DNA of 64,000 bases from Halomarina salina (GTDB lineage: Archaea; Halobacteriota; Halobacteria; Halobacteriales; Haloarculaceae), in assembly GCF_023074835.1 (NCBI RefSeq), contig NZ_JALLGW010000001.1, positions 1,860,001 to 1,924,000 of the forward strand, in the 5' to 3' direction. The first letter of the stretch is position 1, and every line of letters begins with the position of its first letter. A program made the position numbers and the translations under genes. This document shows, in pieces, positions 1,368 to 16,824 of this stretch. Under the pieces are notes generated by a model. It worked only from the letters and a program-made list of their open reading frames with translations. It ran no database searches and had not been told where the DNA came from.

Positions 1368-1392
1368 GATAGACTGAGAGCGTGAGTGTATC
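1368..1392 (+). repeat. array repeat R0, right half only
   Basis: 25 nt: arm GATAGACT, a 9-nt centre GAGAGCGTG, then inverted arm AGTGTATC. The left part of the repeat (the CGCGGCACGCG segment) is absent, so this copy marks the left edge of the array. Confidence 0.85.
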
Positions 1393-1492
1393 AATGTAAT
1401 TTCGAAATGGTGACTCTCTACTAGTAGTGACGAGGCTGCACCTGAAGGCCGAATGGGGATACTCCTTCTACTCGTCATCGAAAACCTACACA

Positions 1493-2155
1493 ATGAGCAT
1501 CGTATCGACGATACAGGAGTTCATCACGAACCCCATAGTGATGGGAGCGTGGGTCGTGCTCGTGGTCGCCTCGCTGGGCACGCTCGTCTGGGACCTCCGG
1601 AGGAACAACGAGGAACTGGGCAGTCTCATGAAGTACGTCTGGGGGTTCACCGTGCTCTATTCGGGACCCATCGGCCTCGGGGTGTACTGGTACTCCGGAC
1701 GAACCCAGATATCACACGATTCACTCTGGCGACGAGGCTTCCGGTCGGTCTGCCACTGCTACTCCGGGTGTGGTGCGGGTGAGATTACCGGCGTCGTCAT
1801 AGCTGTCGGTTTACTGGCGATGGGGAACCTCTGGGTTGCCGCCGTCACGTTCTCACTGGCGTACGTCTTCGGCTACGCCATGACGATGGGGCCGTTGATG
1901 CAGGAGGGGATGGAGTTCCGCGAAGCGTTCGTCGACGCCTTCTACTCCGAGACCGCCAGCATCGCGGTCATGGAAATCGTTGCTATCAGTACTGACATCT
2001 GGCTCGCCGGTGAGGCGACGATGGGTGAACCACTGTTCTGGGCGGCGCTGGTCGTCTCGTTGTCTGTGGGTCTCATCGCCGCCTACCCGGTGAACCTCTT
2101 GCTCATCAGTCGCGGCGTCAAAGAAGGGATGATGAACCCCGCCGAGATGAGCTAA
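1493..2155 (+). CDS. DUF4396 domain-containing membrane protein
   Basis: A 220-residue membrane protein of the DUF4396 family, function unknown. Helices are visible at about residues 13-34, 47-65, 98-118, 119-140 and 170-210. The family's conserved segments are present: GVYWYSGRT, the Cys/His-rich HCYSGCGAGE, and GYAMTMGPLMQEG. DUF4396 genes often sit near copper or redox genes, and here the next gene is a DUF326 copper-binding type protein, consistent with a metal-related role (inference). The ATG at 1493 matches the usual family N-terminus; an in-frame GTG at 1427 would add 22 unsupported residues. First gene of cassette 1. Confidence 0.85.
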   Translation: MSIVSTIQEFITNPIVMGAWVVLVVASLGTLVWDLRRNNEELGSLMKYVWGFTVLYSGPIGLGVYWYSGRTQISHDSLWRRGFRSVCHCYSGCGAGEITGVVIAVGLLAMGNLWVAAVTFSLAYVFGYAMTMGPLMQEGMEFREAFVDAFYSETASIAVMEIVAISTDIWLAGEATMGEPLFWAALVVSLSVGLIAAYPVNLLLISRGVKEGMMNPAEMS

Positions 2156-2182
2156 TCGCCAACCAGGACACGTGTTAGGTCC

Positions 2183-2535
2183 TCAGGCGGACGTCATCTC
2201 GCGGCAGCTCTCGGCACACTCGCGGACGACCTCACCACAGACCTGACAGTGGTCGTGCTGTTCGCACTCCTCGGCGCACGCTTCACAGGCCTCCGCGCAC
2301 AGTTCGGCGAGGTGCTCGCTGTAGTCGGAGTCTCGCGCCATGAACCGCGCGTGGAGTGTGGTGGCTCTGCAACGTCCCGACATAGCCGGAGACACTCGGC
2401 CATCTCCTCGCCGTGGCCAGCACACTGGTCCGCACACCACTCACAGACCTCGGCGGCTTCGAGGCAGTTCTCGATGCACTCGCGCTCGTGATCGCTCAGG
2501 TGGTCGATCTCGGAGACGGTTTCTGACAGAGACAT
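2183..2535 (-). pseudogene. DUF326 four-helix-bundle copper-binding protein, frameshifted
   Basis: Small Cys-rich cytosolic protein of the DUF326/Csp type that binds Cu(I) inside a four-helix bundle. Reading from the ATG at 2535, the first 56 codons give CIENCLEAAEVCEWCADQC and CLRLCRDVA. The rest (TLHARFMARD, CAEACEACAEEC, HDHCQVCGEVVRECAESC) lies in another frame down to the TGA at 2183. The frame changes between 2360 and 2367, where 8 nt occupy the space of three codons, so one base has been lost. All expected Cys are present across the two frames, so the gene was intact recently. A sequencing error is possible. It is convergent with the DUF4396 gene in the same cassette. Confidence 0.8.
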
Positions 2536-2601
2536 TGCGTGTCAGTCCACAGCGCCACTCGACACGGTGGTTCGGCCCTCGGCTGCAGGGGATGGGAAGG
2601 T

Positions 2602-2651
2602 GACATACTCGCGGCACGTATCGAATGCGAGACGCAGAGCGTGAGTATATC
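2602..2651 (+). repeat. array repeat R1, internally shortened
   Basis: 50 nt. The left segment (ACTCGCGGCACG) and the right segment (GCAGAGCGTGAGTATATC) are both present, but about 12 nt of the middle are missing compared with the 62-nt copies. The right arm reads GAGTATATC. Confidence 0.85.
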
Positions 2652-2673
2652 GCCCTCGACATAGAGTCACCCA

Positions 2674-2681
2674 AGATATTT
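2674..2681 (+). promoter_or_regulatory. TATA-like box of cassette 2
   Basis: AGATATTT lies 26-33 nt before the ATG at 2707. It begins 23 nt past repeat R1, so the cassette carries its own promoter. Confidence 0.5.
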
Positions 2682-2706
2682 GTCTTCCACTCTCATCGAC
2701 AAGAAT

Positions 2707-3072
2707 ATGGGCACGTCGAAACTCCGAACGGTCCTCCTGCCGCTCGGTTTGTTCGTTCTCTCGGCAGCAGCGTACTGGTCCGTCCTGCTGGGTGTCGTTC
2801 CGTTCGGCCTCGATGCACCACTCATCTTCGCGGTTATCGCAGGAGTGACTGCACTCGGCGCTGGGAAGATTGGCGCGCGGACACCGGCCCTTACAGCAGG
2901 AGTGGCAGCACTTGAATTTACCCTCGCCGCCGCAAGTGTCGGTGGGATTCTCACTGTCGGTGACTCTGCAGTCTTCGTCGGGGCAGCACTCGCAACGCTC
3001 GGTGTACTGAGTTACGCAATCAGTATGGTCCACCACATCGGAACGCGCGTCAACAGTGTGCGTCCGGCGTAA
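2707..3072 (+). CDS. small four-helix membrane protein, unknown function
   Basis: A 121-residue protein I do not recognise. Nearly all of it is hydrophobic, with helices at about residues 8-28, 32-50, 60-78 and 83-105, and a short basic tail ending in RVNSVRPA. The ATG at 2707 is preferred because a TATA-like box lies 26-33 nt upstream; a TTG at 2680 would overlap that box. It is the only gene of cassette 2, and its stop is 29 nt before repeat R2. No catalytic motif is visible; a small integral membrane role is all that can be said. Confidence 0.7.
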   Translation: MGTSKLRTVLLPLGLFVLSAAAYWSVLLGVVPFGLDAPLIFAVIAGVTALGAGKIGARTPALTAGVAALEFTLAAASVGGILTVGDSAVFVGAALATLGVLSYAISMVHHIGTRVNSVRPA

Positions 3073-3101
3073 TCTGCGCAGACTCACATACTACTGGAGC
3101 G

Positions 3102-3163
3102 GTAGACTCGCGGCACGCGTCGCTCACTTGGCCCAATCGATACACGCAGAGCGTGGGTGTATC
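3102..3163 (+). repeat. array repeat R2
   Basis: 62 nt full-length copy. The left segment reads ACTCGCGGCACGCGTCGC, the middle arm GATACAC and the right arm GTGTATC. The middle and right arms pair perfectly. The last bases also form the TGA stop codon of the gene in cassette 3. Confidence 0.9.
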
Positions 3164-3770
3164 ATTCGGCCCCGGTGGTCGTCGCGGTGGATGTGACGTG
3201 GAACGTCTCATTGTAGGTCTCTCCGGTGAGGGCCTCATCGTAGTGGGTGACGTGAACCGTCTCGGGACACTCAGCGACAACCTCGACGGTGGCTCTGTAG
3301 AGAACGGGGTTGATTTCGGTCGTACACCCTTCTGGCCCCTCCTCGAACGTATCACGGATTGTCAGCCGAAGCGTGTTCGACGTCGCGTCGTACCGTACGG
3401 CATCAAGGATTGTCGTACGGCATGACCGTGAATTACTGTACATCCAGCCGTCGACAATCACCCGATTCGACCCACACTGGAAGCGGACCGTCGCCCCGTG
3501 GTGGACCTCATCCACCGACGTGAATATCGGCCCGGCATAGTCGGTGGACTCCTCGTCCGTTTGGTAGAGAGGGACGTCCAAGAACTGCTGGAATCGACTA
3601 TCAGCGATTCCGTCCGGCGTCTCAGAGGTCGAGGTGGGTGATGGAGTGGCGGTGGTCGTGGAGGCAGTGGTCGACTCGTTCGAAGAGGACGTACTCCGGT
3701 TACTCGCAACACACCCCGCGAGTGTTGTGAGGAGGCTCCCTGTCACCCCGAGATACCGACGGCGGTTCAT
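3162..3770 (-). CDS. Tat-type lipoprotein, unknown function
   Basis: A 202-residue predicted secreted lipoprotein. The N-terminus MNRRRYLGVTG has twin arginines, followed by a hydrophobic segment and a lipobox TLAGC, so it is probably exported by the Tat path and lipid-anchored at the Cys near residue 20. A Ser/Thr-rich linker (about residues 22-50) leads to a beta-rich domain with four Cys, suggesting two disulfides. The start at 3770 is chosen because an upstream in-frame ATG lacks any signal and a CTATTAG box lies 23-29 nt upstream. The stop codon TGA lies across the edge of repeat R2. Sole gene of cassette 3. Confidence 0.75.
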   Translation of the reverse strand: MNRRRYLGVTGSLLTTLAGCVASNRSTSSSNESTTASTTTATPSPTSTSETPDGIADSRFQQFLDVPLYQTDEESTDYAGPIFTSVDEVHHGATVRFQCGSNRVIVDGWMYSNSRSCRTTILDAVRYDATSNTLRLTIRDTFEEGPEGCTTEINPVLYRATVEVVAECPETVHVTHYDEALTGETYNETFHVTSTATTTGAE

Positions 3771-3792
3771 GCTTCTCTGTTGATGACTTTGC

Positions 3793-3799
3793 ACTAATA
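3793..3799 (-). promoter_or_regulatory. TATA-like box of cassette 3
   Basis: CTATTAG on the minus strand lies 23-29 nt before the start at 3770. Very similar boxes precede the genes of cassettes 9 and 10. Confidence 0.45.
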
Positions 3800-3826
3800 G
3801 GGTTCCTGTGCGTCAAACTGGTCGTT

Positions 3827-3890
3827 GATACACTCGCGGCACGCGTCGAGAGCCATCGCCCGTTTGAGAGACTCAGAGCGTGGGTCTATC
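3827..3890 (+). repeat. array repeat R3
   Basis: 64 nt. The left part is GATACACTCGCGGCACGCG and the right part is CAGAGCGTGGGTCTATC. The central 20 nt diverge from the other copies (GAGAGCCATCGCCCGTTTGA). The middle arm GAGACTC no longer pairs well with the right arm. Confidence 0.9.
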
Positions 3891-3947
3891 GTTCTTCTCT
3901 TCTCGTTATCAGAGGGCCACAATCGGTGTGTGCCGATACCGTGGGCT

Positions 3948-3955
3948 CAATAAAC
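3948..3955 (+). promoter_or_regulatory. TATA-like box of cassette 4
   Basis: CAATAAAC lies 22-29 nt before the GTG at 3977, which supports that codon as the start of the TRIC-family gene. Confidence 0.45.
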
Positions 3956-3976
3956 TCGGTTCCATATGTCGACGTA

Positions 3977-4651
3977 GTGATTCAGGACCTCACCGGGGTG
4001 TTGCCCGTTGACCCGTTCACTGTGATGAACGCAGTCGGTCTCGTCGCGTTTGCTCTGGTCGGGGCGACTAAGGCAATCCGTGAGGACTTCGATGTCTTCG
4101 GAATCGTCGTCGTCGCGCTCGCCACAGCGTTCGCCGGGGGGACGATGCGAGACCTTCTCGTGAATCGCGTGCCGCTGGCCCTCCAGTCAGTGGGCGAAAT
4201 CGGGTTCGGAGCACTCGGTGTGGGGGTCGCACTCGGAGTTAGTATGGTACTCGGGTCTCCAGAGGACCATCCGTTCACACTCGTCGCTGATGCGGTGGGA
4301 CTCGCTGCGTTCGCTACGGCCGGCGCGATTGTGGCAACGGGCAGTGGCGTCTCGGCCTTCGGTGTCGTTGCGATTGCGACGATTAACGCGGTCGGGGGTG
4401 GCGCGGTCGCCGATATTCTACTGGACCGGCCGCCGTTCATCCTCTTCGAGGACTTCTACGCGAGTTGTGCCGTTCTGGGTGGGAGTGCCTATTGGATAGT
4501 GACAGCTGGTATGGGGGCAGAACGTATCGCCGTCGCAGTCTGTGCTGTCGTAACCGTTGGGACACGTCTGGTCGCAGTCAACTACGGCTGGAGACTTCCG
4601 ACGGCACAGATGCTCGGGCTGTCTACTGGTGAGGTCAACGAAAACCGATAG
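3977..4651 (+). CDS. TRIC-type (UPF0126) cation channel family protein
   Basis: A 224-residue integral membrane protein of the trimeric intracellular cation channel family (UPF0126/YadS). These proteins form homotrimers with one K+/Na+-conducting pore per subunit. Two three-helix repeats are visible, each with a kinked Gly-rich motif: AFAGGTMRDLLVNRVP in the first and VGGGAVADILLDRPPF in the second. The second copy has Ala-Asp in place of Arg-Asp. The ATG at 4025 would cut into helix 1, so a start upstream is needed. The GTG at 3977 fits the TATA-like box; a GTG at 3926 is possible. Sole gene of cassette 4. Confidence 0.85.
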   Translation: MIQDLTGVLPVDPFTVMNAVGLVAFALVGATKAIREDFDVFGIVVVALATAFAGGTMRDLLVNRVPLALQSVGEIGFGALGVGVALGVSMVLGSPEDHPFTLVADAVGLAAFATAGAIVATGSGVSAFGVVAIATINAVGGGAVADILLDRPPFILFEDFYASCAVLGGSAYWIVTAGMGAERIAVAVCAVVTVGTRLVAVNYGWRLPTAQMLGLSTGEVNENR

Positions 4652-4685
4652 TGCGAGACATGAATGGTCACAGTCCGTGGTGAGC

Positions 4686-4710
4686 GATACACTGAGAGCG
4701 TGAGTGTATC
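4686..4710 (+). repeat. array repeat R4, right half only
   Basis: 25 nt with perfect arms GATACACT and AGTGTATC around GAGAGCGTG. The left segment found in most copies is missing, as in R0. Confidence 0.9.
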
Positions 4711-4727
4711 ATCGGCACGTCAGTCGC

Positions 4728-5219
4728 TTACTCTCCCTCGGGGGTGCTTGTGTCTGCAGAACAGTATCGAGGGTCGTAGGCGAACTCCTCACAGCGGTCA
4801 CGAACCCGGAGCCGGAGCCCGCCAGACTCGTCGGACTGGCCCTCGTGTACGACGACCGCGACAACGCACTCTGGCACGGTATCGTAACGGTCGAGCACGT
4901 CGAACGTCTGCCAAGACTCCCCATCGACGCGGGCGGAGACAGTATATGTACCGGGAACCGCTTCCCAATCACAATCGACAATCCGGCGAGGTAGGATGCC
5001 GTCTTCGGCTGCTTCGACCTCGTGCGTCGATTCGTGGACAATCATTTCGTCGCGCTCAATGCGCAGCACGTAGGTGTGCCCGGATGTCTCATCAGAGTTA
5101 ATTACGCCGAACCGACGAAGCGTCGTCATCGGCTCACCGGAGACGATTCCGTCGTGACAGCCTGCAACACCTGCCATCCCGACGGTTCCGAGTGAGGCGA
5201 GGAGGGTACGACGGTTCAT
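4728..5219 (-). CDS. Tat-type lipoprotein, unknown function
   Basis: A 163-residue predicted lipoprotein. The N-terminus MNRRTLLASLG has twin arginines, then a short hydrophobic stretch and lipobox VAGC, so the mature protein begins at a lipidated Cys near residue 21. The rest looks like a small beta-sandwich with two Cys pairs (DCDW, PECV, DRCEE, YCSAD). The pattern resembles haloarchaeal extracellular proteins of unknown role, and no enzyme motif is seen. The ATG at 5219 gives the signal sequence at once; upstream codons read through the repeat region and look non-coding. The stop is 18 nt after repeat R4. Sole gene of cassette 5. Confidence 0.75.
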   Translation of the reverse strand: MNRRTLLASLGTVGMAGVAGCHDGIVSGEPMTTLRRFGVINSDETSGHTYVLRIERDEMIVHESTHEVEAAEDGILPRRIVDCDWEAVPGTYTVSARVDGESWQTFDVLDRYDTVPECVVAVVVHEGQSDESGGLRLRVRDRCEEFAYDPRYCSADTSTPEGE

Positions 5220-5296
5220 ATCTCGGTAGCGGGTCACGTCGGTAAGTCCTTTCTGTCTACAGGCCTCCTTGACGTGAGTCCTCTGGCAACTGGCTC

Positions 5297-5323
5297 TCGA
5301 TTGACAGAGAGCGTGGGTGTATC
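5297..5323 (+). repeat. array repeat R5, degenerate
   Basis: Only the right part is clear (AGAGAGCGTGGGTGTATC). The middle arm is replaced by CGATTGAC, and the sequence further left only weakly recalls the CGCGGCACG segment. Confidence 0.75.
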
Positions 5324-5331
5324 GAACGGCC

Positions 5332-5655
5332 TCAGTGGAGGACTCGAATCGCTTGGATTCCTCTGAGAGTCGCAACGACACCCAGCACACCAAGCAGGAT
5401 TGCGTAGATAGTGTCTGCGTTTCTGGTATAGTACACGCCAGCGATGAGCAACGAGAACGCGCCGATGACGGGCAACAGATAGTAGATGTAGCGGCGGCGG
5501 CCCGCGATACCACATCCACCAGCGAGAGCAGCGAGGCCGAAGAAGACCGTGATGAGCGAGGGACCAAGAAGGACCGTCACCAGTATAGCGCCCCCGATTC
5601 CAACGAGGAGGAGCCCCCACTCACCAACAAGAGCGCGAATCTCTCTCGTGTCCAT
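5332..5655 (-). CDS. small membrane protein, unknown function
   Basis: A 107-residue protein I do not recognise. A short charged N-terminus (MDTREIRALVGEWG) leads into helices at about residues 15-42, 52-70 and 78-98, separated by a basic loop GRRRYIYY. The ATG at 5655 is chosen because codons further upstream only translate repeat R6, and a GTTATTA box lies 27-33 nt upstream (5682-5688). The stop is 8 nt after the end of repeat R5. Sole gene of cassette 6. No functional motif is seen. Confidence 0.65.
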   Translation of the reverse strand: MDTREIRALVGEWGLLLVGIGGAILVTVLLGPSLITVFFGLAALAGGCGIAGRRRYIYYLLPVIGAFSLLIAGVYYTRNADTIYAILLGVLGVVATLRGIQAIRVLH

Positions 5656-5681
5656 TTGTCGACCAATTCCACCACCGCTCG

Positions 5682-5688
5682 TAATAAC
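5682..5688 (-). promoter_or_regulatory. TATA-like box of cassette 6
   Basis: GTTATTA on the minus strand, 27-33 nt before the start at 5655 and only 7 nt inside the cassette from repeat R6. Confidence 0.4.
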
Positions 5689-5694
5689 GTTGCT

Positions 5695-5757
5695 GACAGA
5701 CTCGCGGCACACGTCGCTCACTCGGTCCGTTCGATAGACTGAGAGCGTGGGTCTATC
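5695..5757 (+). repeat. array repeat R6
   Basis: 63 nt full-length copy. Left segment ACTCGCGGCACACGTCGC; middle arm GATAGAC; right arm GTCTATC. Both arms differ from R2 and R4 at the same paired position, so pairing is kept. Confidence 0.9.
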
Positions 5758-5880
5758 AGTTGAGGCCGTAGTGGTTGCCAATCAGAGATAGCTCGAAGTG
5801 ACCCTCAGACAGTACTCTTTTGATGAGTACATACGTCGACACGGAGTATGCTACCACGGTGGAGTTCACCTACTTCGGGG

Positions 5881-6378
5881 ATGACTTCACCGTCTGCAGT
5901 CGTTGTCATCCTCGTTGTCCTCACGGGATGTATCGGAGTTCCTCTCGCCGGTGATGCCGAACAGGGAACTTCTGTCACTCTCGTGTCCAACAGTTCCGTA
6001 GCGGAACCGTACACACTCGAAGTGTTCGTCGTTGACCTCCCCGCGAACGTGAGTGTGAACTACAGTGACGAACGAGCGGCCGACACGGAGATCGACGAAG
6101 GAGTTAGCCTCGTCGATTCTGGCGAGTACTACTATACCGACGTCACTCCAGCCCCCGAGGTAACCCGCCATCACGGGAACGTGACCGTTCCGTCGGGAGC
6201 GTCTGCCACAACCACTGTTACAGGCCTTCACCAACGAGGTGCCGTAATTGTGGCCGCCTACGATGAGCGAGGACGAATCACTTCCTACGTAGTCGCGAAC
6301 TGTGACGACCTCGCCCTCAGTTATCTGCAAATACGCCTCGAATCCGATGGCGCGAGTATCACACACGCCTGTAGCTAA
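5881..6378 (+). CDS. secreted lipoprotein, unknown function
   Basis: A 165-residue predicted lipoprotein. The N-terminus MTSPSAVVVILVVLTGCIG is a Sec-type signal ending in lipobox LTGC, with the acceptor Cys at about residue 16. The mature part is beta-rich, acidic and has several Asn-X-Ser/Thr sites (NSS, NVS, NYS, NVT), suggesting possible N-glycosylation on the cell surface. Two late Cys (NCDD and HACS) may pair. The ATG at 5881 is chosen because it opens directly on the signal. The stop is 28 nt before repeat R7. Sole gene of cassette 7, with no known domain. Confidence 0.7.
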   Translation: MTSPSAVVVILVVLTGCIGVPLAGDAEQGTSVTLVSNSSVAEPYTLEVFVVDLPANVSVNYSDERAADTEIDEGVSLVDSGEYYYTDVTPAPEVTRHHGNVTVPSGASATTTVTGLHQRGAVIVAAYDERGRITSYVVANCDDLALSYLQIRLESDGASITHACS

Positions 6379-6406
6379 ATCGACCGCACTCTCCCCAAAC
6401 TGCGTC

Positions 6407-6469
6407 GTTACACACGCGGCACGCGTCGCTCACTCGTCCCTATCGATAGATGCAGAGCATGGGTCTATC
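6407..6469 (+). repeat. array repeat R7
   Basis: 63 nt full-length copy. Left segment ACACGCGGCACGCGTCGC; middle arm GATAGA; right arm TCTATC. The arms again pair although their bases differ from R2 and R4. The core reads GCAGAGCATGGG. Confidence 0.9.
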
Positions 6470-6538
6470 AGCGGGATACAAGGGCGGTGTCTTCGACCGC
6501 ACTGGTACGGACGATTGTTGCCTGACCATTGGCCACAC

Positions 6539-7054
6539 CTATAGTTCGAGTATCGGGGCTTCATCGAGGTCCAAATCGCCTCGGAGTAGTAATCCGACAT
6601 CTTCGGAGAGATTCGAGCCACCCACTAGTTTCGTGAACACCATTACCAGAACCGAGAGGACGAGACCGCCAATGACGATGACATTCGGAACCATCGCGAA
6701 CATGCGCCGTACGCTAGCAACGAGGGAAGAACGAAGGGCAGCGACATCTCGGGTGAGCGGCTCAACCACTGAAATTCCGAAAAACGATTCATCAATCTTA
6801 GCGTTCAAAAACACGAGTATGAACCCCCCGATGCCTGCGATGCCGAGTACTCCCACTACCAGTGTTAACCCTCCAAAGATGTGGGTGTCCCGCTCGTGGT
6901 AATCCTTCGGATGGAGGATGTCGGCGATGAGTCCGGTCGTCAGGACTATTCCCGGTATCGCGAGAACGCCGAACATTCCGAGGGTAGCCGGGTTAGACCC
7001 AACTATGCCCGCGAGAACCCCATACGAACCGATCACCGTGAGTGGGAGGGTCAT
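6539..7054 (-). CDS. four-helix membrane protein, unknown function
   Basis: A 171-residue membrane protein I do not recognise. Helices lie at about residues 3-20, 23-45, 57-80 and 118-140, the last after an amphipathic segment (TRDVAALRSSLVASVRRM). The C-terminus is acidic (LDLDEAPILEL). The start at 7054 is preferred because a TATA-like box GATATACT (7079-7086) lies 25-32 nt upstream. An ATG at 7117 would add 21 residues (MFSVGERVLVRVYP...) and cannot be excluded. The stop is 69 nt from repeat R7, the largest gap of this kind in the array. Sole gene of cassette 8. Confidence 0.65.
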   Translation of the reverse strand: MTLPLTVIGSYGVLAGIVGSNPATLGMFGVLAIPGIVLTTGLIADILHPKDYHERDTHIFGGLTLVVGVLGIAGIGGFILVFLNAKIDESFFGISVVEPLTRDVAALRSSLVASVRRMFAMVPNVIVIGGLVLSVLVMVFTKLVGGSNLSEDVGLLLRGDLDLDEAPILEL

Positions 7055-7078
7055 CCCCAACCCACGGAGATGAACGGG

Positions 7079-7086
7079 ATATACTC
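7079..7086 (-). promoter_or_regulatory. TATA-like box of cassette 8
   Basis: AGTATATC on the minus strand lies 25-32 nt before the ATG at 7054. Confidence 0.45.
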
Positions 7087-7202
7087 TCACGAGGACTCGT
7101 TCACCAACTGAGAACATAGGTATGCCCCAAGCTACTGCACAGCCACCAGCGGTAGCCTCCCTGCTAACTGCCGACGAACAACCCCTACGTTCGTTGAATG
7201 CC

Positions 7203-7265
7203 GATACACACGCGGCACGCATCGTTCACTCGGCCCGTTCGAGACACTGAGAGCGTGAGTTTCAC
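7203..7265 (+). repeat. array repeat R8
   Basis: 63 nt copy. Left part GATACACACGCGGCACGCA; middle arm GAGACACT; right end GAGTTTCAC, which no longer pairs. The last bases encode the stop codon of the cassette 9 gene. Confidence 0.85.
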
Positions 7266-7696
7266 AGCTCACTGTCCGGGGCGGTCGAGTCACCTGCCCC
7301 CGACTGATTGAGACCGGTGAAGTTACTCACTCCGATGACGAACAGCAGCACTACGAACCCCCAAAGTATCAGTGCCAGCACCCGTGCTCCGCCGGAATAG
7401 TCCCCAGAGAACGGGCGAAGCATCGGAACGGGCCACAAGACCCCCTCTATCAGCATACATACGCTGAACACAGTCAGGGCCAGCCCTTGCACTCGGCCCT
7501 CGAAGGATCCAGAATTGGTTTCGCCCAGACCGGCCATATTTCGTGCCAGAAGGGCGATACAGATGGTGAGTGCCATGCTGGTCGGGAGCCACCAGTGACG
7601 CGGGTGAGCACCCACAGCGAACAGGAGTGCTGCGACAGCGATGAAGATGCCAGCCAGTGCCAACGGGTGCTGTTGTGACCAGCTCTGGTTTCCCAT
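7262..7696 (-). CDS. four-helix membrane protein, paralogue of the next cassette's gene
   Basis: A 144-residue membrane protein of unknown function. Helices lie at about residues 11-30, 36-52, 70-90 and 100-122; conserved features are the HWWLPTS turn and a GRVQGLALTVFS helix start. It is clearly related to the cassette 10 protein (shared WWL, GRxxGL and LxxVWxG-like spacing) and to the fragment at 7803-7975, which ends almost identically (GDSTAPDSEL versus ANSTSPDGEL). The ATG at 7696 has a CTATTAG box 22-29 nt upstream. The stop codon lies inside repeat R8. Sole gene of cassette 9. Confidence 0.7.
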   Translation of the reverse strand: MGNQSWSQQHPLALAGIFIAVAALLFAVGAHPRHWWLPTSMALTICIALLARNMAGLGETNSGSFEGRVQGLALTVFSVCMLIEGVLWPVPMLRPFSGDYSGGARVLALILWGFVVLLFVIGVSNFTGLNQSGAGDSTAPDSEL

Positions 7697-7717
7697 ACTA
7701 TCCAGAACACTATACGT

Positions 7718-7725
7718 GCTAATAG
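7718..7725 (-). promoter_or_regulatory. TATA-like box of cassette 9
   Basis: CTATTAGC on the minus strand, 22-29 nt before the ATG at 7696. It is nearly the same box as in cassettes 3 and 10. Confidence 0.45.
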
Positions 7726-7745
7726 TTCATGACTACGAGTCAAAC

Positions 7746-7806
7746 GATACACACGCGGCACGCGTCGCTCACTCGTCCGTTCGATACACTGAGAGCGTGG
7801 TCTTAC
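7746..7806 (+). repeat. array repeat R9
   Basis: 61 nt copy. Left part GATACACACGCGGCACGCG; middle arm GATACACT; right end GTGGTCTTAC with two bases lost. The final bases provide the stop codon of the remnant in cassette 10. Confidence 0.85.
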
Positions 7807-7975
7807 AGCTCACCGTCTGGGCTAGTGGAGTTAGCTGCATCAGGTTGGAGGAGACCAGTCACGTGACCAACCCCGATGATTAACAGTACCACGACGAAAT
7901 CCCAGAGTATCACCGCCAGCGTTCGTGCACCGCCGGACACACTGGCTGAGAGTGGGCTACGCATCGGGTTGATAG
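7803..7975 (-). pseudogene. C-terminal remnant of a cassette 9-type membrane protein
   Basis: About 56 codons matching the end of the cassette 9 protein: SGGARTLAVILWDFVVV here against SGGARVLALILWGFVVL there, and the same NST/PDxEL tail. There is no usable start codon and the first half of the gene is missing. Its 5' end runs straight into the 3' end of the intact relative at 7957-8355, in another frame. The junction lies in a short shared sequence (AACCCGATGCG), so it looks like the scar of a deletion between two related genes. The stop codon is supplied by repeat R9. Confidence 0.7.
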
Positions 7976-8355
7976 ATGCCGAACAGTTCTCCAAGACCAC
8001 TGACGAGCATCACGAGCAGGACGCCCCACCACACCAATACGAATACCGTTAGGCCCCACACGTGGCCCTCACCGAATGGGTTGAACATCGGGAAGCCAAA
8101 CAGCATCCCTTCGGCAACCATGAGTACACTGAGGACACTGACACTGAGGCCACGTGCTCGACCCTCAATCGGGCCAGAGGTCGAACGGTCCATGTCGAAC
8201 ACTTCTCGTGCAGTAACCCCGACCAGCAACGTGGTTCCCAATGACGCTGACAGCCACCAAATCGCCGGAGGAATGCCGAGAACGAAGAGAGCGGCTCCAA
8301 CGGCCAAGGAAAGCGTAGTGAACGCCAGCATATACTTCGAGGTCGTGCTTACCAC
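7957..8355 (-). CDS. four-helix membrane protein, cassette 10 paralogue
   Basis: A 132-residue membrane protein related over its whole length to the cassette 9 product. Helices lie at about residues 8-28, 32-50, 68-88 and 97-118, with IWWLSAS and EGRARGLSVSVLS matching the relative. It ends early at FGIYQPDA followed by TAG, whereas relatives continue for about 10 residues, because the gene is fused there to another copy's remnant. The GTG at 8355 is preferred since a TATA-like box (8378-8386) lies 23-31 nt upstream; a GTG at 8370 is also in frame. The function is unknown. Confidence 0.65.
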   Translation of the reverse strand: MVSTTSKYMLAFTTLSLAVGAALFVLGIPPAIWWLSASLGTTLLVGVTAREVFDMDRSTSGPIEGRARGLSVSVLSVLMVAEGMLFGFPMFNPFGEGHVWGLTVFVLVWWGVLLVMLVSGLGELFGIYQPDA

Positions 8356-8377
8356 ATTGCCACCAAACACCCGTTTC

Positions 8378-8386
8378 GCTAATAAC
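8378..8386 (-). promoter_or_regulatory. TATA-like box of cassette 10
   Basis: GTTATTAGC on the minus strand, 23-31 nt before the GTG at 8355. Confidence 0.45.
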
Positions 8387-8404
8387 TCGTTGTGGCGACC
8401 AACC

Positions 8405-8429
8405 GATACACTCGCGGCACAAGTCTATC
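8405..8429 (+). repeat. array repeat R10, shortened end copy
   Basis: 25 nt. The first 16 bases of the repeat (GATACACTCGCGGCAC) are joined directly to the last nine (AAGTCTATC). The inner segment is gone. It marks the right edge of the array. Confidence 0.85.
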
Positions 8430-8479
8430 AGCTGAGTCACCACAGACCGGCGTGAAATAAACCGGCCGTGTCTCTCGCG

Positions 8480-9436
8480 CTACCGTACCGTCGCGCCCTC
8501 GTTCCGGGCGCGGACGACCCGTACCTCGCCGTCCACTCCCGCCTCGTCGAGCGCACGCTCCCCCGCCTCGTGAGCGGCGTCGGCGTTCGCCCGGTCGGTG
8601 ACGCCGTAGACGGTCGGTCCCCACGACGACTGGCCGACGCCGGTCACCGAGGGCTCCTCGCCCAGCGCCGCCACCAGTTCGCCGACGGGCGGGCGGTAGA
8701 CGCCGCCCTGTTCGTCCGCGTACCACGCGCCGTTGAGGCGGCCGAACTCGCCCACGGCGCGGCCGAACCGCTCGCGCTCGCCCGTCACGACCGCCGGGAG
8801 CAGTCGGCGGACGAGCACCGCCGAGAGGTCGTCGGCGATGCTCGGGTCGGCGCGTTCGACCACCGCACGCATGCTGTCGTCCTCGTCGCTCCCGGACCGC
8901 CCTTCGCCGTCGGGCGTCACGAGCAGGAACCGCCAGTCGTCGGGGACGGGGTGGCGGGCGACGACCGGCGGGACGGACCACTCGCCGCGGGCGGGCGGCG
9001 TCGTGGTGAACCGCTCGGTGGGGTGACCGGCGTCGACGACGAGGCCGCCCGTCTCGAACGTCGCGACGCCGACGCCCGAACGCCCGCCGCGTCCCAGCGC
9101 GGGCGCACTCGCACGGACCCGGGGGGCGCGGTCGTACGCCCGCGCAATCGCTTCGAGCGTCGCCAGCGCGTGCTGGGTGCCGCTCCCGAGGCCGACGTGG
9201 TGCGGGAGGCCGTCGACGAGGCGAACGTTCGCACCGGGCAGGTCGAGCAGTTCGCAGACCGCGTGTGTCGTCTCGCGGAGCGCCGGGTCGGCGGCGACGC
9301 CGTCGGCGCGCGTCGCCTCCACCACGACGCGCGGTTCGTCGAGCGCGAGGCCCACGCCGCCGTAGAGTCGCTCGTACGCGAGCGAGAGGTTCGTGAACCC
9401 GACGTGGAGGCGTGCCCCCGTCTCGACCCGGACCAT
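8480..9436 (-). CDS. beta-ribofuranosylaminobenzene 5'-phosphate synthase-like GHMP protein
   Basis: A 318-residue GHMP-superfamily enzyme of the beta-RFAP synthase type (MptG in methanogens). That enzyme joins 4-hydroxybenzoate or 4-aminobenzoate to PRPP in methanopterin synthesis. The GHMP phosphate-binding motif GLGSGTQ is at residues 82-88, preceded by HHV. The N-terminus MVRVETGARLHVGFTNLS is typical of the family, and the C-terminal segment contains GVGQSSWGPTVYG, a conserved Gly/Ser-rich loop. Haloarchaea do not make methanopterin as methanogens do, so the true acceptor in this organism is open. The ATG at 9436 is the only sensible start. It stands alone between the array and the glycosyltransferases. 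Confidence 0.8.
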   Translation of the reverse strand: MVRVETGARLHVGFTNLSLAYERLYGGVGLALDEPRVVVEATRADGVAADPALRETTHAVCELLDLPGANVRLVDGLPHHVGLGSGTQHALATLEAIARAYDRAPRVRASAPALGRGGRSGVGVATFETGGLVVDAGHPTERFTTTPPARGEWSVPPVVARHPVPDDWRFLLVTPDGEGRSGSDEDDSMRAVVERADPSIADDLSAVLVRRLLPAVVTGERERFGRAVGEFGRLNGAWYADEQGGVYRPPVGELVAALGEEPSVTGVGQSSWGPTVYGVTDRANADAAHEAGERALDEAGVDGEVRVVRARNEGATVR

Positions 9437-15128: not shown

Positions 15129-16769
15129 ATGAAGACCGCCGACCTGCTCGTCTCCTGTCTCGAAGCGGAGGGCGTCGACTACGTGTTCGGCCTCCCCGGC
15201 GAGGAACTCGAGGACCTGCTGTTCGCGATGGGGGACTCCACCGTCGACTTCGTCCCGGTCCGCCACGAACAGGGCGCGGCGTTCATGGCCGACGTCCACG
15301 GTCGCATCACCGGCGACGCGGGCGTCTGCCTCTCGACGCTCGGCCCCGGTGCGACGAACCTGCTGACCGGCGTCGCCGACGCCCACCTCGACAAGTCGCC
15401 GCTCGTCGCCATCTCCGGGCAGGGGGGCCGCGAGCGCCTCCACCAGGAGAGCCACCAGCTCATCGACGTGGTGGAGATGTTCGGCCCCATCACGAAGTGG
15501 AACACGCGCCTCGACGACCCCGACGTGGTCCACGAGTCGGTGCGGAAGGCGTTCAAACTCGCCGAACACGAGAAGCCCGGCGCGACCCACCTCGAACTCC
15601 CGGAGGACGTCGCCGCCGCCGACACGGAGGCGACGGCCCTCGAACCGACCGCGCGGCACGTCCACCGACCGTCGCCGGACCCGGAGTCGGTCGCCGAGGC
15701 CGTCGCCGTAGTGCGGCACGCCGACCGACCGCTCGTGCTGGCGGGCAACGGCGCGGTCCGGTCACGGGCGTCCGAACAGCTCCGGTCGTTCGTCGACCAG
15801 ACGGACATCCCCGTGGTCGCCACCTACATGGGCAAGGGTGCGGTGTCCGACCGCGACGACCACTCGCTGATGACGCTCGACTCCGGCAGCGGCGAGGTGG
15901 ACCGCGTCATCGAGCGCGCCGACGCGGTGGTGACCGTCGGCTACGACATCGCCGAACACGACCCCGAGACGTGGAACCCCCAGAGCGACAAACGTATCGT
16001 CCACCTCGACTCGGAACCCGCCGAGGTGTACGAACACTACCTGCCGGACGTGGAGATGGTGTGTGACGTCGCGGCGGGCATCGAGGCGCTCTGCGGCGCG
16101 GACCTCGACGCCATCGACACCGACTGGTACGCCGACCTGCGCGAGAACCTCGTCGGGCAGGTGACCAGCGAACCGACCGACGACGACCCCGTCACCGTCG
16201 CGAACACCCTGCCGCTGCTCCGCGAGACGATGGCCGACGACGACGTACTCATCTCGGACGTCGGCAGTCACAAGATGGCCATCGCGCGGTCGTACCCCAC
16301 CTACGAACCGAACTCCTGCCTCATCTCGAACGGACTGGCGACGATGGGTATCGCCGTGCCGGGGGCCGTCTCCGCCGACGTGGCGCTCTCGGGAAGCAGC
16401 GCGCTGTCGAGCGACGAGAGCACCAAACCCGACAGCGACGGCGCGGGCGGCCCGAACGTCGTCGCGGCGACGGGCGACGGTGGCTTCCTGATGAACGCGG
16501 CCGAACTGGAGACGGCCCGGCGACTCGACTGCTCGTTCACCGTCCTCCTGTTCGTCGACGACGACTACGGCCTCATCTCGGAGAAACAGGAGGAACACCG
16601 CGGCGAGTCGACGGGCACACTCTTAGAGAACCCCGACTTCGTCACGTTCGCCGAGTCGTTCGGCGTCACCGCCTACCGCCCCGAGACGTGGGACGAGGTA
16701 CGGACGGCGCTGGACGAGGCGGTGGACAGCGACGACCTGTCGCTCGTCGAAGTGCAACTGGACCGCTGA
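15129..16769 (+). CDS. thiamine-diphosphate enzyme, acetolactate synthase large-subunit type
   Basis: A 546-residue ThDP-dependent enzyme resembling catabolic acetolactate synthase (two pyruvate to acetolactate and CO2). The activating Glu is Glu47 in VRHEQGAAFMA. The ThDP/Mg motif starts GDGG at residues 449-452 and ends with DDDYGLI. The central domain has VVATYMGKGAVSD. A Ser/Asp-rich insertion (about residues 420-443) just before the ThDP motif is unusual for the family. No regulatory ilvN/ilvH subunit is adjacent, favouring a catabolic or other decarboxylase role over branched-chain amino acid synthesis (inference). The ATG at 15129 opens on the family's N-terminal helix. Confidence 0.8.
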   Translation: MKTADLLVSCLEAEGVDYVFGLPGEELEDLLFAMGDSTVDFVPVRHEQGAAFMADVHGRITGDAGVCLSTLGPGATNLLTGVADAHLDKSPLVAISGQGGRERLHQESHQLIDVVEMFGPITKWNTRLDDPDVVHESVRKAFKLAEHEKPGATHLELPEDVAAADTEATALEPTARHVHRPSPDPESVAEAVAVVRHADRPLVLAGNGAVRSRASEQLRSFVDQTDIPVVATYMGKGAVSDRDDHSLMTLDSGSGEVDRVIERADAVVTVGYDIAEHDPETWNPQSDKRIVHLDSEPAEVYEHYLPDVEMVCDVAAGIEALCGADLDAIDTDWYADLRENLVGQVTSEPTDDDPVTVANTLPLLRETMADDDVLISDVGSHKMAIARSYPTYEPNSCLISNGLATMGIAVPGAVSADVALSGSSALSSDESTKPDSDGAGGPNVVAATGDGGFLMNAAELETARRLDCSFTVLLFVDDDYGLISEKQEEHRGESTGTLLENPDFVTFAESFGVTAYRPETWDEVRTALDEAVDSDDLSLVEVQLDR

Positions 16770-16824
16770 GCCGACGGCGATAGGAGCGACGCGCTGCCGG
16801 GAGGTCCCCGCTCGGCGGCGTACG

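Follow-up and report, generated by a model that had tools for sequence, protein, structure and literature searches.

Repeats in Halomarina salina as probable joints of an integron-like gene-cassette array with a candidate recombinase of the PhiCh1 Int1 group

Introduction

Among bacterial devices for the capture and reshuffling of genes, the integron is the standard example. The pdif modules of Acinetobacter resemble the array described here in being small gene modules bounded by tyrosine-recombinase sites (XerC/XerD), but they depend on dif sites and the chromosomal XerCD and show an alternating site order, both recombinase and site being different.

A 2022 survey of 6718 archaeal genomes reported integrons only in metagenome-assembled genomes of nine phyla, with no haloarchaea or Halobacteria in its main text (PMC9668308). 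The PhiCh1 Int1 gene lies between inverted repeats in a flipping segment, the inversion of which switches tail fibres (PMC6210493), and a note in the database record likewise places Int1 of PhiCh1/PhiH1 within an invertible segment. The homeocassettes of Halorubrum share with the present locus a variable gene content at fixed haloarchaeal loci, but they are islands of several genes, attributed to homologous recombination within the conserved sequences around them, with no joints described (PMC11078007); considered as a prior account of haloarchaeal arrays, they were set aside as something else (PMC11078007). A search of the open-access literature revealed no published account of integron-like arrays in haloarchaea.

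Here, a stretch of 64,000 nucleotides of the Halomarina salina genome (contig NZ_JALLGW010000001.1, positions 1,860,001 to 1,924,000; hereafter, the window) was analysed. The best reading of its repeats is an integron-like cassette system unrelated to IntI/attC. We consider it quite probable that the repeats are the joints of a chromosomal gene-cassette array on which a recombinase of the PhiCh1 Int1 group acts in trans.

Results

Repeat element and window array

The repeat at 5695–5757 (plus strand) is present with the three arms described in the earlier note, GACAGAC (5695), GATAGAC (5733) and GTCTATC (5751), in the layout GACAGAC-TCGCGGCACAC-GTCGCTC-(13 bp)-GATAGAC-TGAGAGCGTGG-GTCTATC. Further copies or half copies start at 1368, 2602, 3101, 3827, 4686, 5299, 6407, 7203, 7746 and 8405 of the window, all on the plus strand and at intervals of approximately 400–1200 bp from 1368 to 8429. 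The first copy (1368) is the right half only (LE), and the last (8405) consists of the left half completed by a right arm (RE). These array-end copies are simple 7-11-7 inverted-repeat sites of 25 bp, and some internal copies are simply two 25-bp sites abutting. In the best reading, the internal 63-bp copy is a tandem of two such sites joined by a linker, the first RE-like but with a degenerate right arm and the second LE-like. A whole-genome profile search with a model from seven copies gave 101 matches at E ≤ 0.1, and therefore the abundance of the repeat is far beyond chance. Approximately 100 joints are distributed across some 25 loci, with a median spacing of about 600 bp, a count in which the palindromic core was sometimes detected on both strands; the longest ORF per unit has about 119 aa.

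In the window array, about ten units of one gene each are arranged with their joints in the same orientation throughout, while the cassette genes, encoding a DUF4396 protein, a glycine-transporter family protein and small membrane proteins or lipoproteins, lie in either orientation. On the plus strand, the conserved A flank (ATTGCTGGTAAT, about 1350–1367), which is also found in H. oriensis, precedes the LE site GATAGAC-TGAGAGCGTGA-GTGTATC (1368–1392). A gene encoded in the A flank was considered as the target and rejected, the genes flanking the A flank copies being unrelated. The first interval holds both the DUF4396 membrane protein gene (1427–2155, plus; PF14342, 7e-32) and an ORF for a Cys-rich small protein without Pfam match (2194–2535, minus), and no site was recognised between the two. 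The subsequent joints, all plus-strand site matches, alternate with single genes, which are ORFs named by their character unless a Pfam match is given: the short composite joint R1 of 50 bp (2602–2651), a small membrane protein (2680–3072, plus), composite joint R2 (3101–3163), a lipoprotein-like protein (3162–3794, minus), composite joint R3 (3827–3890), the glycine-transporter family protein (3926–4651, plus; PF03458, 1e-33), joint R4 (4686–4710), a lipoprotein-like protein (4728–5219, minus), joint R5 (5299–5323) and a small membrane protein (5332–5655, minus). R4 and R5 are recognisable in their right halves only, the left halves having decayed.

Composite joint R6 (5695–5757, plus) is made up of a left simple site (5695–5719), a linker and a right simple site (5733–5757), and its crossover point would fall after 5749 (GAGAGCGTG/GGTCTATC; here and below, the slash marks the point of exchange). 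It is followed by a lipoprotein-like protein (5848–6378, plus), composite joint R7 (6407–6469), a membrane protein (6539–7117, minus), composite joint R8 (7203–7265), a small membrane protein (7262–7696, minus), composite joint R9 (7746–7806) and another small membrane protein (7957–8370, minus). The starts of two neighbouring cassettes (7202–7396 and 7745–7937) are 77% identical, and the two cassettes encode similar small membrane proteins; to judge by this likeness, the cassettes starting at 7202 and 7745 are diverged duplicates of one cassette. The array closes with the RE site GATACAC-TCGCGGCACAA-GTCTATC (8405–8429, plus) and the conserved B flank (AGCTGAGTCA...CGGCGTGAAATAAA; 8430–8470, plus), which is common to the RE sites flanking the recombinase gene elsewhere. 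RNase HI (612–1247) and RFAP synthase (8480–9436), both named from reading their translations, lie outside the array and are unrelated to it.

Exchange of cassettes at the joints

Comparison of related sequences revealed abrupt switches at GAGAGCGTG/RGTNTATC (LE type) or TCGCGGCAC/R..TATC (RE type). The glycine-transporter cassette (3866–4701) recurs with 94% identity at a distance of more than 100 kb, in a different array (L068, 12606–13436), and its end diverges from that copy within GAGAGCGT/G. Similarly, contigs C1 and C2 carry cassettes with 99.1% identity to each other, the C2 copy ending at GATAGACTCGCGGCAC/R. H. rubra and H. oriensis have two flanks in common, one of 4.9 kb (99.9%) and one of 1.3 kb (99.2%), which cross the LE site as far as ...AGAGCGTG and break at the next base, the break point in such species-to-species segments lying directly after GAGAGCGTG. 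These data point to a single crossover position adjoining the right arm; the shared cassettes and the breaks at GAGAGCGTG/R speak for cassette mobility with a fixed crossover point. On the basis of sequence comparison, site-specific exchange at the joints is very probable.

At the RNase HI/RFAP-synthase locus, H. oriensis shares the left flank and LE site, after which come a single, unrelated cassette and the B flank with its RE site in decayed form. The RNase HI locus of H. rubra contains another gene and no array, with neither LE nor RE. A search of the H. salina genome for empty target sites, allowing up to 3 mismatches, returned none.

The aligned stretches of H. rubra and H. oriensis (L138 1–4943 with L140 6519–11456; L138 6788–8111 with L143 138–1461) are 99–99.9% identical, unlike the RNase HI region, which is approximately 80–85% alike in these species. 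From this identity, the stretches adjoining arrays appear to have been transferred recently between H. rubra and H. oriensis.

Candidate recombinase

The genome encodes ten PF00589 proteins, nine besides the candidate, a tyrosine recombinase of 285 aa (G000, C1:1975798–1976655). Its gene, approximately 108 kb from the window array, is positioned between an RE site on the plus strand and an RE site on the minus strand. The same arrangement is present in H. oriensis (L140) and H. rubra (L138), and a second H. oriensis copy (L143) also lies between RE sites. In H. rubra, the gene (L138, 5758–6516) has an in-frame stop; the copies in H. salina and H. oriensis (L140) are open. A serine resolvase/invertase-like gene (L068, about 16060–16800) is located immediately beyond the left end of the array adjoining the recombinase.

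All six catalytic residues (R105, K172, H231, R234, W257 and Y266) are invariant in ten relatives. The nearest phage relatives are those of HCTV-5, CGphi46 and ChaoS9 and PhiCh1 Int1, with 45–49% identity (PhiCh1 Int1, 45% over 217 aa). By homology and its catalytic R-K-H-R-(H/W)-Y set, the protein belongs with the PhiCh1 Int1-like recombinases; no relative of solved structure was found by sequence search. Its position and homology make it a fairly likely candidate for the enzyme acting on the joints.

The same position between inverted RE sites would also suit a DNA-inversion system, shufflon-like or tail-fibre-switch-like, in which the chief activity of the recombinase is to flip segments, the arrays having built up as its substrates or as by-products. 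Such flipping is suggested by the recombinase block, whose orientation with respect to one flank is reversed between H. rubra and H. oriensis (the neighbouring cassettes differing too), by some arrays that are inverted between A and B flanks, and by the related Int1 of PhiCh1/PhiH1 residing in invertible segments. The phage module has a homologous short tyrosine recombinase (45%) encoded between inverted sites in common with the present system, but it is a single invertible segment with tail-fibre genes and without a cassette array, and LE/RE-like sites were not found in the PhiCh1 invertible segment. A shufflon is marked by inverted sites within the array and exchanged gene ends, whereas the window joints are all on the plus strand, with whole ORFs between them and not variable gene ends. 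One joint orientation per array predicts excision and insertion instead, and the same cassette is present in different arrays. Inversion as the main activity is, thus, an unlikely reading of the arrays.

Covariation and folding of the arms

The earlier note had read compensatory changes, and from these a selected stem, out of the arms of R2, R4, R6 and R7. This was not borne out; the copies listed had been those that match. By eye, perfect pairing of the right-hand arms is seen in only 3 of 10 cases in the window, and the mismatched ones include R0 (GATAGAC/GTGTATC), R3, R5, R8 and R9. Over 83 right-hand sites of the H. salina genome, the arms agree at 459 of 581 positions, compared with 450.9 ± 5.0 when arms are re-dealt among sites (p = 0.06). 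At the variable G/C position, which has two common states on both sides, 50 of these sites agree where 44.4 are expected (p = 0.07). A weak excess is seen in 46 congener copies (257 agreements; 247.2 ± 3.6 expected; p = 0.01). The covariation signal is a weak residual at best.

Folding energies, proposed as a check on each single strand, revealed no favoured strand: 38 full copies fold slightly better than shuffles on either strand, with a mean z of −0.58 (top) and −0.61 (bottom), the strands being alike (p = 0.49). An Rfam search of the repeat gave zero matches. Because arm changes are nearly independent and folding is weak and without strand preference, the data do not support selection for a single-strand stem. 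They do support conserved two-fold arms, and the two-fold protein site that the earlier note had offered as its alternative is well founded, the end copies being simple 7-11-7 inverted repeats as well as recombination joints. The arms of one site would vary almost independently because the crossover falls between spacer and right arm; the two arms of a site likely derive from different cassettes.

The comparison of the repeat with an attC holds as an analogy, in that the 63-bp copy separates single-gene cassettes and consists of two simple sites in tandem, and fails for the selected single-strand stem. If the repeat were a hairpin site that is homologous to attC or shares its mechanism, recombining as one folded strand, the arm order (left, degenerate inner, inner, right), which is that of attC, would speak in its favour, as would the exchange at one point adjoining the last arm. 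However, the spacers show no in-register pairing, the 38 copies fold at z of about −0.6 on both strands without strand bias, no clear arm covariation is seen, the array ends are simple and duplex-like, and Rfam has no match, so we regard such a site as improbable.

That the copies are dispersed, non-mobile repeats (terminators, regulator sites or MITE-like debris) lying by chance between small genes is hardly credible: the sites are intergenic, many are half copies and the B flank has a T-rich stretch on the opposite strand, but array ends have a special form, cassettes shared by arrays break at one base, and 99% identity between species stops at the site.

Distribution beyond the genus

The model of the present sites (type 1) found copies in 7 of 8 Halomarina genomes and in none of the other 138 genomes of the family. 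Around recombinase homologues in other genera, inverted copies exceed shuffled controls in only two tested loci (L123 and L125), and similar motifs are found at the same places at further loci of other genera. At L124, short repeats (TATAGTGAGACTAT) occur at 2773, 2940, 3106 and 3259 in both orientations, approximately 3 kb from a recombinase homologue of another genus. Viral contigs contained four exact matches to short site patterns, none with a recombinase of the group or a convincing composite site.

A second kind of composite site (type 2), in which the arms differ from those of type 1, was first seen on a complete, annotated plasmid of Haloarcula marina, where such sites lie between single genes within a few kb of the recombinase. 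The type-2 model matched 101 of the 146 genomes of the family (E ≤ 0.001), representing 20 of 22 genera, and, across the phylum, 29 of 295 genomes (E ≤ 1e-5), all of the same order. The H. salina genome itself also has type-2, Haloarcula-like joints (contig C5:81892–88150), on a contig without a PF00589 match. In our reading, the shared GACTCAGAG.GTG and CTCGCG blocks suggest a common origin of types 1 and 2.

No recombinase homologue was detectable in three congeners with joints (G052, G053 and G057). Within the family, a homologue at E ≤ 1e-10 is present in just 36 genomes, compared with the 101 that have type-2 sites; therefore, another enzyme may act on these sites, or many arrays may be relics.

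Discussion

The system shares with integrons the arrays of single-gene cassettes between recombination sites (in H. salina and on the Haloarcula marina plasmid), the one site orientation, the composite four-arm site, the fixed exchange point, a recombinase able to act in trans and arrays without a recombinase. It differs in lacking IntI and attC matches, in duplex-like inverted-repeat sites without clear folding, in genes lying in both orientations, in a special right-end site and in two arrays around one recombinase. NCBIfam returned for the recombinase only weak matches to archaeal XerA/XerC (2e-6 and 0.004), far under the cut-offs, and no integron-integrase model. Because neither an IntI-type integrase nor the single-strand fold of an attC (z −0.58/−0.61, no strand bias, no Rfam match, weak or no covariation) was found, we conclude that the system, which works like an integron, is outside the integron family.

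In the proposed mechanism, a tyrosine recombinase of the PhiCh1 Int1 group, acting in trans, would bind the 7-bp arms and exchange DNA at the border of spacer and right arm. Cassettes would be excised as circles, with an expected junction of GATACACTCGCGGCAC/RGTSTATC, and inserted at LE or composite sites. The spacer of LE (TNAGAGCGTG) and that of RE (TCGCGGCAC) are each retained on either side of the exchange, which is unexpected for an ordinary duplex exchange across an 11-bp spacer. Because the spacers differ and each is kept, probably one strand pair is exchanged and then resolved by replication, as in integrons. The last cassette nearly always carries the short RE form and inner cassettes the composite joint, a pattern that fits a founder insertion with later insertions at the LE side. 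In comparison with an attI site, RE sites are present on both sides of the recombinase gene, but insertion seems to take place on the LE side, and no empty site was seen. Points that weigh against the overall reading are the lack of any empty target site among those searched for in the H. salina genome, its nine further PF00589 proteins, the two genes sharing the first interval and the decayed left halves of R4 and R5.

The function of the system would be the capture, storage and reshuffling of accessory genes, and the system seems to be a separate, haloarchaeal equivalent of the bacterial integron. With some caution, we incline to the view that this order carries a gene-capture platform independent of integrons, with a recombinase akin to the tail-fibre invertases of haloviruses, one-strand-pair exchange at simple sites, and types 1 and 2 as branches of one system. 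If true, a separate device of the integron kind would be present across an archaeal order in which genes are known to be exchanged heavily. It would account for a class of small, variable haloarchaeal islands and supply a new recombinase with short, defined sites. It would also allow one to ask whether one-strand cassette exchange arose twice.
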